Shown: positions 16,348-24,865 of the stretch, piece after piece
Layout of the letters: each line of letters begins with the position of its first letter
How positions within the stretch are numbered: position 1 is the stretch's first letter
Assembly: GCF_007830265.1 (NCBI RefSeq)
Contig: NZ_VLKE01000001.1
Location: 5,704,001-5,768,000, forward strand
Length of the DNA stretch: 64,000 nt
Origin: Micromonospora olivasterospora
GTDB lineage: Bacteria; Actinomycetota; Actinomycetes; Mycobacteriales; Micromonosporaceae
Direction: 5' to 3'
Notes under the pieces: model-generated
Database searches by the model: none
Seen by the model: only the letters and a program-made list of their open reading frames with translations
What the model was told of the DNA's origin: nothing
Position numbers and translations under genes: made by a program

Positions 16348-17076
16348 ATGAACCCAGTCACCATCGTCACCGGCGGCAGCCGCGGCATCGGCGCCGCCAC
16401 GGCCCGCCGCCTCGCCCACGACGGCCACCACGTCGTCGTCGGCTACCGCCGCGACCACGACGCCGCCGCCCGCGTCGTCGCCGACATCCGCACCGCCGGG
16501 CGCCACGGCATCGCCGTCGCCGCCGAGGCGGCGGACCCCGAGCAGATCCAGCGGCTCTTCGACACCGCCGCCGACCTCGGCCCCCTGACCGGCCTGGTCA
16601 ACAACGCCGGCGTCACCAGCCCGATCGGCCCGTTCACCGACCTGCGCGTCGACGACCTGCGCCGCGTCGTCGACGTCAACCTCATCGGGTACGTCCTGGC
16701 CGCCCAGCAAGCCGCCCGCCGGATGAGCGCCGGCGGCGCGATCGTCAACGTCTCATCCGCCGCCGCCACCCTCGGCAGCCCGGGGGAGTACGTCCACTAC
16801 GCCGCGGTCAAGGCCGCCACCGACACCCTCACCGTCGGCCTGGCCAAGGAACTGGCCCCGCGCGGCATCCGCGTCAACGCGGTCGCCCCCGGCATCATCC
16901 GCACCGACCTGCACGCCGTGTCCGGCGCGCCCGACCGCCCCGACACCGCCGCCGGCCGCATCCCGATGGGCCGCGCCGGGCAGCCCGACGAGGTCGCCGG
17001 CGCGATCGCCTGGCTGCTCGGCCCCGACGCCGGCTACACCACCGGCGCCGTCCTGCGCGTCTCCGGCGGCCTCTGA
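16348..17076 (+). CDS. Short-chain dehydrogenase/reductase, FabG-like
   Basis: 242 residues from ATG 16348, after GCAGGGGAG. A classical SDR: TGGSRGIGAATA (NAD(P) loop), NNAGV, the catalytic Ser in NVSSAAA and YVHYAAVKAA (Tyr-x3-Lys), then NAVAPGIIRTD and GAVLRVSGGL at the end. It probably oxidises or reduces an alcohol or ketone with NADP(H); it has no operon partner to suggest the substrate. Codons end mostly in C. Confidence 0.85.
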   Translation: MNPVTIVTGGSRGIGAATARRLAHDGHHVVVGYRRDHDAAARVVADIRTAGRHGIAVAAEAADPEQIQRLFDTAADLGPLTGLVNNAGVTSPIGPFTDLRVDDLRRVVDVNLIGYVLAAQQAARRMSAGGAIVNVSSAAATLGSPGEYVHYAAVKAATDTLTVGLAKELAPRGIRVNAVAPGIIRTDLHAVSGAPDRPDTAAGRIPMGRAGQPDEVAGAIAWLLGPDAGYTTGAVLRVSGGL

Positions 17077-17101: not shown

Positions 17102-17173
17102 GGCTCCATGGCGGCGACATGGGGGTATCCGAGTCCCCTGGATGCCCCCATGTCGGTGACACGGAGTGGATCA
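17102..17173. repeat. Dispersed imperfect palindromic repeat, copy 1
   Basis: A 72-bp imperfect inverted repeat built around cgacatgggggtatcc and its near-complement ggatgcccccatgtcgg. A second copy with about 80 percent identity by eye lies in opposite orientation at 58475-58549. It lies after the SDR stop codon and may also work as a terminator. Confidence 0.7.
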
Positions 17174-17216
17174 CCCCGGCCCACCCGTCAAACCGTGACG
17201 CCCCGGCCCGCCCGCG

Positions 17217-17473
17217 TCAGGGTTTGACGGCGAGCACGGGCCGGTCGGCGTCGAGCAGGATGCGCTGCGCTCACCGTCAGGGCGCGCGCGAGGCCGCGCG
17301 GGTCGACCCTCGGACCGTAGCCGGACGATGTACTCACCGGGGACCGGCCGAAGGCCCGGCGCGGCGTCCGTCGCCCTGACCGGTGACGGCGACGCGGGCG
17401 CCGCCGCGGCCGGTACGGCGGCCAGGGCGTTGCCTGCGGCCACCAGCAGGGCCACCAGGACCCGTGATCTCAT
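17217..17473 (-). pseudogene. Small secreted protein gene with frame break
   Basis: From ATG 17473 there is a clear signal peptide (MRSRVLVALLVAAGNALAAV, then PAAAAPA) followed by VPGEYIVRLRSEG, which resembles the first strand of an I9-type propeptide. The frame then fails, and the likely end, AQRILLDADRPVLAVKP and a stop at 17217, is in another frame. The span is one base short of a multiple of three, so one missing base would give a protein of about 85 residues. It may be a remnant of a secreted subtilase-type gene or a small stand-alone protein. It lies close to dif in a decayed zone. Confidence 0.5.
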
Positions 17474-17585: not shown

Positions 17586-17613
17586 GGATTCGATAATGTA
17601 CATTATGTCAAGT
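17586..17613. other. dif: dif site (XerCD chromosome dimer resolution site)
   Basis: The 28-bp layout is exact: an 11-bp XerC-side arm GGATTCGATAA, a 6-bp centre TGTACA and an 11-bp XerD-side arm TTATGTCAAGT. The inner 14 bp (17593-17606) are a perfect palindrome. The right arm and CGATAAT core agree with my memory of the actinobacterial dif consensus (CGATAAT, ACATTATGTCAAGT); Escherichia coli dif has the same CATAA-6-TTATG skeleton. It is AT-rich within GC-rich DNA and lies among broken genes. XerCD act here to resolve chromosome dimers at division. Confidence 0.85.
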
Positions 17614-17652: not shown

Positions 17653-17919
17653 CTACGCCGCCGACTCAGCCACCGACAGCGACCGCTCCGCCGGCAGCCG
17701 CGCCGCGACGACCGCGGTCAGCAGCACCAGCCCACACAGCGCGGGCAACGCCACGGCGAGACCGAACAGCGCCGCGACGGCCGGCCCCAGTGCCGCGCCG
17801 ATGAGCGCCGCGACCGCATCACCGGCCTGAAACGCCGCCGCCACCCGACCGCGCACCGCGTCCCCGGTGGCGGTCTGGACCCGGTGCACCGACACCACGA
17901 GCGCCACGGCTCCCGGCAC
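17653..17919 (-). pseudogene. C-terminal remnant of an MFS transporter
   Basis: About 88 residues read as the last helices of a major facilitator permease: VALVVSVHRVQTATGD, GRVAAAFQAGDAVAALIG, and FGLAVALPALCGLVLLTAVVAARLP, then a stop at 17653. No start codon or N-terminal part is present; before about 17919 the frame has no membrane character. It is a remnant left between dif and the Xer-like gene. Confidence 0.6.
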
Positions 17920-18034
17920 CCCGGCGGGCGGCGGTTGACGGAGCGGGACCTGCACCGGGTGCTTGACGGCGCGGCGCTGGTCACGGACGGCCCTTCCCGC
18001 TCCCCCTCTCGGCGGCCTCCCCACCGACGCGAAA

Positions 18035-18062
18035 ATAATGCATAATATGCCTTATGTACGAA
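18035..18062. other. Degenerate dif-like sequence over the recombinase start codon
   Basis: Read in dif layout: left arm ATAATGCATAA, centre TATGCC, right arm TTATGTACGAA. It keeps the inner CATAA and TTATGT of dif but the outer parts of both arms differ. The right arm contains the ATG (18054) of the adjacent Xer-like gene. The stretch is unusually AT-rich and could equally be the promoter -10 region of a leaderless transcript. Confidence 0.4.
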
Positions 18063-19057
18063 AAACAGGACGAATCGGTGGTCGGGTTGATCGAGGAGTT
18101 CCTGACGGCCCGGGCGACCCGCAAGCCCTCCCCCCACACGCTGGCCGCCTACCGGCGGGACCTGCTGGCCGTCGCCCACCTCGCGGCGGAGGGTGCCACC
18201 CCTCCCCTCCCCCTCGACGACCTGACGATCACGGCCCTCTCCCCCCGCACTATGCGCGCGGCGTTCGCCCGCTTCGCCGCGCCCGCGCCGCCGCGTCCGT
18301 GCACCGGGCCTGGTCGACGTGGAACAGTTTCTTCACCTTCCTGGTGGCCGAGGGGGTCGTGCCCGGCAACCCGATGCCCGCCGTGGGCCGGCCCCGGGCG
18401 CCGCTGCCCCACCCCAAGCCGCTGCGCGGCGACGACACCCCGGAGGAGTTGCTCGCGGCGGTGGCTCGCGGCGACGGCCGGCAGCGCGACCCGTGGCCGG
18501 AGCGGGACCTGGCCGTGCTCGCGCTGGCGCTGTGCGCCGGGCTGCGCCTGTCGGAGTTGCTGGCGTTGCGCGTCGCGTCGCTGGCGGGCCGGCCCGGTGA
18601 GCGGCGGGTCGACGTGGCGGGCAAGGGCGGACGGCCTCGGGTGGTGCCGATTGAGGCGGACCTGGACCGCCTGCTGGCCGACTACCTGGACAGCCGGGCC
18701 CGCCGGTTCGGCGCCCGCAGCGTGCGGCCGGACTCGCCGCTGCTGGTGGACCGGCGGGGCGAGCCACTGCGTCGGGGCGGCCTGCAGTACCTGGTGGAGT
18801 CCTGCTACCGGCGGGCGGGCATCGGCGACCGGGTGCCGCGCGGGGCGCGGTTGCACGCGTTGCGGCACACGTTCGCGACGCGGTTGGCCGAGGATGGGGC
18901 GAGCGCGGCGGAGATCATGCGGTTACTGGGGCACGCGTCGTTGGCGTCGTCGCAGACGTACATCGAGGTGACGGCGGGTCAGCAGCGGGCGGCGGTGGCG
19001 TCGAACCGGACGAACCGGGCGTTGGCGGGGCTGGGGGGCGGGGGCCGGGTGGGGTGA
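18054..19057 (+). pseudogene. Xer-like tyrosine recombinase with a frame break, adjacent to dif
   Basis: From ATG 18054 the core-binding domain reads MYEKQDESVVGLIEEFL, then KPSPHTLAAYRRDLLAVA. The frame breaks at about 18277 and resumes one frame over with HRAWSTWNSFFTFLVAEG. The catalytic domain is complete: Arg in GLRLSELLAL, Lys in GKGGRPRVVP, LHALRHTFATRL, LGHASLASS and Tyr in QTYIEVT. The span of 1004 bp is one base short of a multiple of three, so one inserted base restores a 334-codon XerC/D-size gene. It lies 440 bp from dif. It may be a dif-associated recombinase, the host XerC/D type, or a remnant of an element that integrated at dif. Confidence 0.75.
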
Positions 19058-23689: not shown

Positions 23690-24865
23690 ATGGATATCAA
23701 GGACGCGGCCCGGCCGCTCGACGGCGCGGGCGTCTCGGCATTCCTGCGGTCGCTTCCCGCCCGGCCCCTGCTGCTCGGCCTCGGCGAGGCCCGGCACTTC
23801 GTCGGGGAGTTGGGCGAGTTGCGCAACGAGATATTCCGACACCTGGTCGAGCACGAGGGCTACCGGTCGTTCGCCATCGAGAGCGACTGCCTCATGGGCC
23901 TCGTGGTGGACGACTTCGTCACGACGGGCGCGGGTACCCTCGGCGACGTCATGGAACGCGGCTTCAGCCACGGCTTCGGCGCGTCGCCGGCCAATCGGGA
24001 GCTCGTGCGCTGGATGCGCGCGTACAACGAGGAGCACGATGAGAAGGTCCGGTTCTTCGGGTTCGACGGCCCTCTGGAGTACTGGGCGGCGAGCCCGCGC
24101 CAGGCGCTCACCGGCCTCTACGCCCTCCTCGACGGTCCGCTCCCCCGCACGGTGGTGACCAGGGAAACCCTCGACACGCTGCTGGGCCCGGACGACCGGT
24201 GGGCGAACGAGGCCACGGCCATGGACCCGTCCCGGTCGATCGGCCGGTCCGCCGACGCCCAGCGGCTGCGTCTGATCGCCGACGACCTGGTGGCGCTGCT
24301 CGACACCCAGGCGCCGCTGCTGAGCGCGGAGGACCGGGAGCGGGCGGCACTGTACGGGCGTACCGCCACCGGCCTGCTGCGCTACCACTACTGGATGGCC
24401 GACACGTCCCCGGCCCGGTGGGCGCGGCTGTCGGCCCTGCGGGACGCGATGATGGCCGCCAACCTGCGTGCCGTCGCCGGGCACGGCCCGGCGCTGGTCT
24501 TCGCCAGCAACCTCCACCTGCAGCGGAACAAGAGCTTCATGCCGTTCGGCGAGCAGGTGCTGCAGTGGTGGAGCGCGGGGGCGATCACCGCGACCCACCT
24601 GGGTGACCGGTTCGCCTTCCTGGCCTCCGCCCTCGGCACGGTCGGCGACGACGCCCCGCCTCCGGACACCGTCGAGGGCATCCTGTCCACGCTTCCGTGG
24701 GATCACTGTCTCGTCGACGCCCGCCGCCTGGCCGGGGCGGCGACGAAGGCCGTACCGCGCAGTTCCCGCGACTTCGCCTATTTCCCGCTGGACCCGGCCC
24801 ACCTCGACATGATCGACGGTGTCGTCTTCCTCCGGCAGGCGGTCGGGCTGGGTTCGCTGGGCTGA
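23690..24865 (+). CDS. Erythromycin-esterase-family protein
   Basis: 391 residues from ATG 23690. The family hydrolyses the macrolactone of erythromycin (EreA/EreB) or succinoglycan-type substrates. Visible blocks: LLGLGEARHFVGELGELRNEIF, where Ere enzymes usually read GEATHG, FAIESDCLMGLVVDDF, FFGFDGP, and YHYWMADTSPARWARLSALRD with ALVFASNLHLQRN, where the catalytic His and Glu of the core lie. The changed first motif (ARHF in place of ATHG) suggests a different substrate from erythromycin. No strong SD is seen near the start. The divergent MerR-type gene suggests drug-inducible expression. Confidence 0.8.
   Translation: MDIKDAARPLDGAGVSAFLRSLPARPLLLGLGEARHFVGELGELRNEIFRHLVEHEGYRSFAIESDCLMGLVVDDFVTTGAGTLGDVMERGFSHGFGASPANRELVRWMRAYNEEHDEKVRFFGFDGPLEYWAASPRQALTGLYALLDGPLPRTVVTRETLDTLLGPDDRWANEATAMDPSRSIGRSADAQRLRLIADDLVALLDTQAPLLSAEDRERAALYGRTATGLLRYHYWMADTSPARWARLSALRDAMMAANLRAVAGHGPALVFASNLHLQRNKSFMPFGEQVLQWWSAGAITATHLGDRFAFLASALGTVGDDAPPPDTVEGILSTLPWDHCLVDARRLAGAATKAVPRSSRDFAYFPLDPAHLDMIDGVVFLRQAVGLGSLG

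Follow-up and report, generated by a model that had tools for sequence, protein, structure and literature searches.

The window analysed here, a stretch of 64,000 bases at C1:5,704,001-5,768,000, contains a dif-like sequence flanked by broken genes, one of which encodes a tyrosine recombinase. The question raised by this locus is whether it is simply the terminus site of the chromosome among decaying neighbours, as an earlier note on the same DNA had proposed, or a dif site with the remains of a second recombination system beside it. The genome measures 7.07 Mb and is assembled in two contigs (C1, 6,945,737 bases; C2, 126,023 bases).

The dif-like sequence lies on the forward strand at 17586..17613 and has an 11-6-11 layout. 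The left arm GGATTCGATAA (17586-17596) is the XerC side and the right arm TTATGTCAAGT (17603-17613) the XerD side, both by family convention, and the centre is TGTACA (17597-17602). A perfect 14-bp palindrome, ATAATGTACATTAT, is read directly from its interior, and all of these elements fall exactly where the earlier note had placed them. With up to three mismatches allowed, the window has a single match to the 22-bp core GATAATGTACATTATGTCAAGT, and none of 100 shuffled controls has any. The genome search that the note had suggested at four mismatches was run at up to three, and returned a single match for the 28-mer, at C1:5,721,586; the reversed pattern gave no genome match at the same threshold. 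When the pattern was relaxed to leave the centre free, one further genome match appeared, with three mismatches and without the symmetry of dif. A chance dif-like sequence is ruled out by the shuffles together with the single genome match, and neither equal copies nor a better match, either of which would have spoken against the identification, were found elsewhere at the mismatch levels searched. The expectation of a single dif is also borne out among relatives, since 99 of 101 same-genus genomes (this one included) have exactly one copy each; the other two, G061 and G092, gave no match at the threshold used.

The sequence is that of an actinobacterial dif. Its inner 22 bp differ by one base from the suggested dif of Frankia alni, also an 11-6-11 site used with XerC and XerD, as printed in the accessible part of PMC3025954. 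As far as that source reaches, the likeness to actinobacterial dif systems extends to the single copy, the position near a skew maximum and the presence of XerC-like and XerD-like genes (both named by best score), and dif itself has no distinguishing feature among the features compared. We regard 17586-17613 as the dif of this chromosome with near certainty. By what is known of the family, XerC and XerD would resolve chromosome dimers at this site.

The position of the site fits the replication terminus, with some latitude. The dnaA gene is at C1:2,642,603, so that dif splits C1 into arms of about 3.08 and 3.87 Mb and lies approximately 394 kb from the exact antipode; the claim that it lies opposite oriC therefore holds roughly and not precisely. 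Over 864 kb of contiguous sequence around dif, the maximum of cumulative GC skew is at C1:5,712,727, 8.9 kb from the site. For comparison, the part of PMC2731167 available to us gives a median of 7,277 bp for this distance in 161 proteobacterial chromosomal sequences. The predicted proximity to a skew extreme is thus found locally, while a coarse genome-wide sample (61 stretches of 20 kb) is noisy, with cumulative extremes away from dif and, when the origin is fixed, a best split at 5.93 Mb. Sequence polarity also switches at dif. Among all octamers scanned in C1:5,304,001-6,168,000, CGGGGGAG reverses most strongly at the site, and the motif GGGGGAG occurs 70 times on the plus and 10 times on the minus strand to the left of dif and 7 and 80 times, respectively, to the right, although the motif was chosen from these same 864 kb and this score is not independent. 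The nearest copies of CGGGGGAG, at 16781..16788 (plus strand) and 24140..24147 (minus strand), both point towards dif and are candidate FtsK-orienting sequences. The E. coli-type motif GGGNAGGG shows mild polarity only (74 plus and 53 minus on the left, 37 and 70 on the right), with a cumulative maximum 56 kb away from dif.

The broken genes around dif are real, and they are of mixed kinds. A fragment with a signal-peptide-like start and no Pfam match occupies 17171-17473 on the minus strand. A weak remnant of an MFS transporter, whose Pfam MFS_1 match (E 0.006) is below the cut-off, lies at 17653-18024, also on the minus strand. The gene at 18054..19057 on the plus strand encodes a Xer-family tyrosine recombinase, the third Xer gene of this genome on the evidence given below, and its reading frame is lost at a point between 18255 and 18295, a frameshift that rests on one assembly. 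Its second piece matches the Phage_integrase family with an E value of 3.8e-24. Other tyrosine recombinases occur in the vicinity: a further domain lies at 1294-1821 of the window (plus strand; open frame of 423 aa), 16 kb from dif, and three adjacent genes on one strand at C1:5,675,465-5,677,817, approximately 44 kb from dif, resemble a recombinase-in-trio element.

The notion of typical terminus decay is not supported for the recombinase gene. We compared the 30 same-genus loci returned out of 99 matches, with the two pieces of the gene searched apart. The first piece is matched beside dif in all 30 and the second in 26, the other four loci ending inside the gene; the frame is intact in each of the 26 relatives readable across the frameshift stretch, and dif lies 297-1408 bp ahead of the recombinase start codon in 30 of 30. 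Thirty same-genus loci around the companion site described below contain a complete gene of 329-347 aa in 28 cases and a gene cut by a contig end in the remaining two, so that all 28 uncut genes are intact. Across 2847 pairs drawn from 76 third-recombinase genes, the median dN/dS is 0.25. Random decay around dif might still be argued from the MFS and other remnants and from the 35 integrase-domain matches in this genome, but in most relatives examined the same recombinase is intact and adjoins dif, and this conserved linkage refutes that explanation for the recombinase and leaves the simple form of the earlier proposal scarcely tenable. The gene is evidently what is left of a module of recombinase and site that most relatives examined keep intact.

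The protein belongs with the Xer recombinases and is neither XerC nor XerD. An intact orthologue scores 163.1 bits on the XerC model (cut-off 335.15), 141.3 on the XerD model (cut-off 329.6) and 71.9 on the XerS model (cut-off 267), below the NCBIfam equivalog cut-off in each case. The XerC-like protein of this genome scores 295.1 of 335.15 on the XerC model, and the XerD-like protein 308.4 of 329.6 on the XerD model and 356.6 on NF001399 (cut-off 279); on the XerC and XerD models the two are themselves below their equivalog cut-offs, and far above the third protein. In a tree of 33 rows, arbitrarily rooted and with 17 of its 29 inner branches open, the third recombinase groups apart from the XerC and XerD of this genome. 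The seven rows of family f15 cluster as a clade, and a further clade unites four genes from mycobacterial plasmids with one chromosomal gene from family f8 (f15 may be Pseudonocardiaceae and f8 Mycobacteriaceae). The low model scores and the separate group together identify a third Xer. Relocation of XerC or XerD to dif was considered and rejected, since the XerC-like and XerD-like genes sit at C1:4.13 Mb and 6.80 Mb; their presence was established in this genome only. The nearest solved structure to the third recombinase is XerD, and R165, K191, H268, R271, H294 and Y303, which we take to be the catalytic residues of the family, are invariant in nine aligned orthologues. Together with the Pfam match, these features point to a catalytic Xer-type tyrosine recombinase.

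A second symmetric element accompanies this gene. In aligned gene starts it overlaps the recombinase start codon, and it typically reads TCATGCATAA-TATCCC-TTATGCATGA, with Xer spacing (11-6-11) and identical arms. We refer to it as the companion site. Among 80 named loci with a neighbouring recombinase gene, mostly from Micromonospora, which is thus probably the genus concerned here, L195, which starts within the gene, was excluded. In the remaining 79 the companion site is at the start codon throughout (at most two mismatches in the inner part), 7-11 of 11 arm pairs are symmetric and the inner arm is perfect in all but one. The dif site lies upstream on the same strand, at 246-1386 bp, in 78 of the 79. 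At up to three mismatches, 87 of 101 same-genus genomes have one companion copy each, and at least four of the 14 misses have diverged only outside the inner arms (G003 and G012, read at L102 and L106; G038 and G007, read at L337 and L354). Symmetry of the 11-6-11 type is common in this GC-rich window, where it occurs at eight places, and the weight of the companion site comes only from its conservation. The arrangement in G100 differs from that of the other same-genus genomes looked at: dif and companion site are on opposite strands approximately 2.1 kb apart (G100:C2:1,879,049-1,881,164), a local inversion.

The copy in the window, ATAATGCATAA-TATGCC-TTATGTACGAA at 18035..18062 on the plus strand, is eroded. 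It lies 421 bp from dif and overlaps the start codon at 18054-18056, retains symmetry at 7 of 11 arm pairs and has a broken inner arm. The companion pattern has no match in this genome at up to three mismatches. With the reading frame and the symmetry of the site both lost, gene and companion site have evidently eroded together.

Site and gene also go together across a set of 80 genomes selected as contrasting cases. All 17 genomes of the home family with a close orthologue have the exact inner motif at the gene, and none of 31 family genomes with dif and without the gene has it near dif, a test that covers this one exact inner motif only; one of these 31 genomes, G193, has an asymmetric match on another contig. 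The motif is likewise absent from 18 genomes of other families without the gene, and it is not found near dif in 14 genomes with a divergent orthologue, one of which (G103) has a single match 1.7 Mb away. The upstream interval was read in 12 of these 14 divergent carriers. Five have near-perfect symmetric sites with other arms, such as TTCAGCATAA-GTGACA-TTATGCTGAA and TTCCACATAA-CTACCC-TTATGTGGAA, four have imperfect symmetric sites, and no site was found in the remaining three intervals. The two companion arms covary, with related genomes counted separately: at the fifth base from the centre, 52 companion sites near dif in f15 and f8 comprise 30 G/G, 16 C/C and 6 mixed pairs. None of the 52 centres is palindromic. 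Outer arm positions show weak or no covariation in a separate search, whose pattern fixed most inner bases, so that its covariation figures are set aside.

The spread of the system was searched within the order, with related genomes counted as separate. In the home family an orthologue (E 1e-60 or better) is present in 60 of 121 genomes and 20 of 44 genera, and dif is matched in 89 of 121 genomes. Both are matched in 57 genomes, 56 of them on one contig, and in all 56 they are within 10 kb of each other; 47 of the 56 have the pair within 2.5 kb on the same strand and six have it in opposite orientation. In three carriers without a dif match (G106, G125 and G139), a dif-like sequence that has diverged further lies no more than 1.6 kb from the gene. 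Over the order, an orthologue at 1e-55 or better is found in 124 of 397 genomes, namely 66 from the home family, 50 from f15, seven from f8 and one from f9.

The families f15 and f8 separate the site from the gene. Companion arms in f15 read ATG[C/G]ATAA (at most one mismatch), and 48 of 50 genomes carry the companion site on the left-arm side of dif, at a distance of 262-1047 bp; with this pattern none was found near dif in G314 and G492. In 31 of the 50, gene and dif are no more than 3 kb apart. Seventeen f15 genomes keep the companion site at dif although their gene maps to another contig or to a position 120 kb to 1.6 Mb distant, and in nine of these 17, whose neighbourhoods were read, no recombinase relative lies within 1.5 kb of dif. 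The companion site is within 1 kb of dif in four of seven f8 genomes, and the other three have none near dif at the pattern used; G458 carries gene, companion site and dif within about 1.5 kb. Altogether, 52 of 68 matches to the companion pattern in the 58 f15 and f8 genomes are within 1.5 kb of dif. One f15 contig, G363:C55:6,710-8,057, has a second dif-like site (three mismatches) together with a second companion-type site, and is possibly a large plasmid with the same site pair.

The module resembles known single-recombinase Xer systems in part. XerS/difSL and XerH/difH each consist of one recombinase gene adjoining its own terminus site, according to the parts of PMC5357621 and PMC2731167 consulted, and the third recombinase likewise has its own dif-like site near the terminus. 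Those systems, as these sources describe them, stand in for XerCD, whereas the companion module has XerCD/dif next door: XerC-like and XerD-like genes and dif are all present in this genome, and the module is not a sole system replacing XerCD. The difSL centre is also 11 bp long in that account, compared with 6 bp in the companion site. XerL/dif of the Legionellales, in the portion of PMC9765430 accessible to us, is a single recombinase that can act in trans, with a plasmid-borne gene in one genus. It shares with the present case a gene able to sit away from its chromosomal site, and differs in that this portion of the account reports no XerCD/dif companion. Among the literature matches listed, with subscription journals and preprints outside their range, there is no account of a third Xer or of a second site beside dif in actinobacteria.

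Relatives also occur on large mycobacterial plasmids, at approximately 41% identity over 93% of the protein in the best rows among the 20 listed of 570 matched records. These genes are plasmid-borne and unlinked to dif. One plasmid carries TCATGCATAA-CAGCTA-TTATGCATGA, with the same arms, 638 bp upstream of its recombinase gene, and a second has a near-symmetric site at the gene start, judged by eye. A plasmid-type multimer-resolution module may plausibly have moved onto chromosomes, or the reverse. A phage attachment remnant was considered and rejected, phage relatives being 27-30% identical in the best 8 of 84 records. The exact motif occurs in 15 viral contigs, three of which (L271, L274 and L277) encode the recombinase at 79% identity; these look like Salinispora-type chromosome ends inside provirus calls.

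We propose that this locus comprises dif for XerCD and a decayed companion module for dimer resolution by a single recombinase, and give this reading, mechanism included, a probability of roughly 55%. It builds on the two sites and their linkage, the covariation of the arms, the co-occurrence of site and gene, the conserved catalytic residues and the decay in this genome, all read from sequence; the companion binding, strand exchange, dimer resolution and any FtsK role that we infer would proceed as follows. In relatives with an intact module, two recombinase monomers would most likely bind the identical companion arms, and strand exchange would take place across the 6-bp centre, by analogy with XerS/difSL, XerH/difH and XerL/dif. 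Since there is one companion copy per genome, its natural partner would be the sister chromosome, and recombination between the companion sites of sisters at the terminus would amount to dimer resolution. The module would then provide a second, XerCD-independent route in the DNA that is the last to be brought to the septum by FtsK.

Polarity counts against this proposal. In 78 named relatives GGGGGAG occurs 83 times on the plus and once on the minus strand to the left of dif, 0 and 32 times between dif and companion site, and 1 and 218 times beyond the companion site. In loci from 23 of the 50 f15 genomes, the counts are 22 plus and 0 minus to the left of the companion site and 1 plus and 20 minus to the right of dif, with no occurrence in between. 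Both sets, which serve as the check on the motif, are homologous DNA. The pattern fits a candidate FtsK-orienting sequence that converges on dif itself and not on the companion site, and FtsK would arrive at dif along such motifs. In addition, two active sites so close together could undo each other's work. The recombinase gene is also absent from 61 of 121 family genomes, so it is dispensable in half of the family, and this genome is losing it. The f15 and f8 genomes and the divergent carriers in which no companion site was found also speak against the proposal.

The convergence on dif would suit an alternative in which the companion site is a terminus landmark without routine strand exchange, where the third Xer binds beside dif and aids some other task there, for example SMC unloading or the tuning of XerCD or FtsK. 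Such a role would also agree with a site that stays within approximately 1 kb of dif in genomes whose gene lies far off, and XerD unloads SMC at dif in B. subtilis, as cited in the available part of PMC13342612. All catalytic residues are nonetheless kept, and an 11-6-11 layout with non-palindromic centres is a layout for strand exchange, so that we consider a landmark unlikely. The module could instead be a passenger: a resolution module of the plasmid or mobile-element type that sits by dif and is inherited but answers no chromosomal need. Its nearest non-chromosomal relatives on mycobacterial plasmids, its patchy presence (20 of 44 family genera) and its loss in this genome are in keeping with that idea, but purifying selection, the intact state of every uncut same-genus gene and the retention of the site at dif after the gene had moved in 17 f15 genomes make it rather improbable.

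Two further explanations confine the companion site or dispense with it. The recombinase might hold down its own synthesis by binding at its gene start, with the linkage to dif incidental, as the overlap of site and start codon in the home family would allow. This operator-only reading is disfavoured and very unlikely, because the 17 f15 genomes with an unlinked gene, nine of them free of any related gene within 1.5 kb of dif, imply that the site acts at dif as more than an operator. Alternatively, the third recombinase might work at dif itself, with or instead of XerC or XerD; it is closely linked to dif, and a TTATG half-site is common to dif and the companion site. Its own better-matching symmetric site co-occurs with the gene, however, and dif persists in 31 family genomes that lack the gene, and we judge work at dif highly improbable. 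We return to the reading in which the companion module resolves dimers at a site of its own.

On balance we favour, by a small measure, the view that two Xer systems lie side by side at the terminus in many actinobacteria of this order. XerCD/dif with its FtsK polarity would be one, and the other, put forward with the same slight preference, would be a third Xer whose symmetric site is kept within approximately 1 kb of dif, also where its gene has moved off. It is similarly somewhat probable that the companion site recombines sisters by a rule of its own, perhaps one suited to many-genome hyphae. GGGGGAG offers a testable candidate for orienting FtsK, the companion site a symmetric substrate and this genome a natural loss mutant, and the question of why the second site must stay so close to dif becomes open to experiment. 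Single-recombinase Xer systems described so far, in the parts of the literature consulted, stand in for XerCD. If the present reading is true, dimer resolution or another Xer task at the terminus would be duplicated, and perhaps divided, in actinobacteria.
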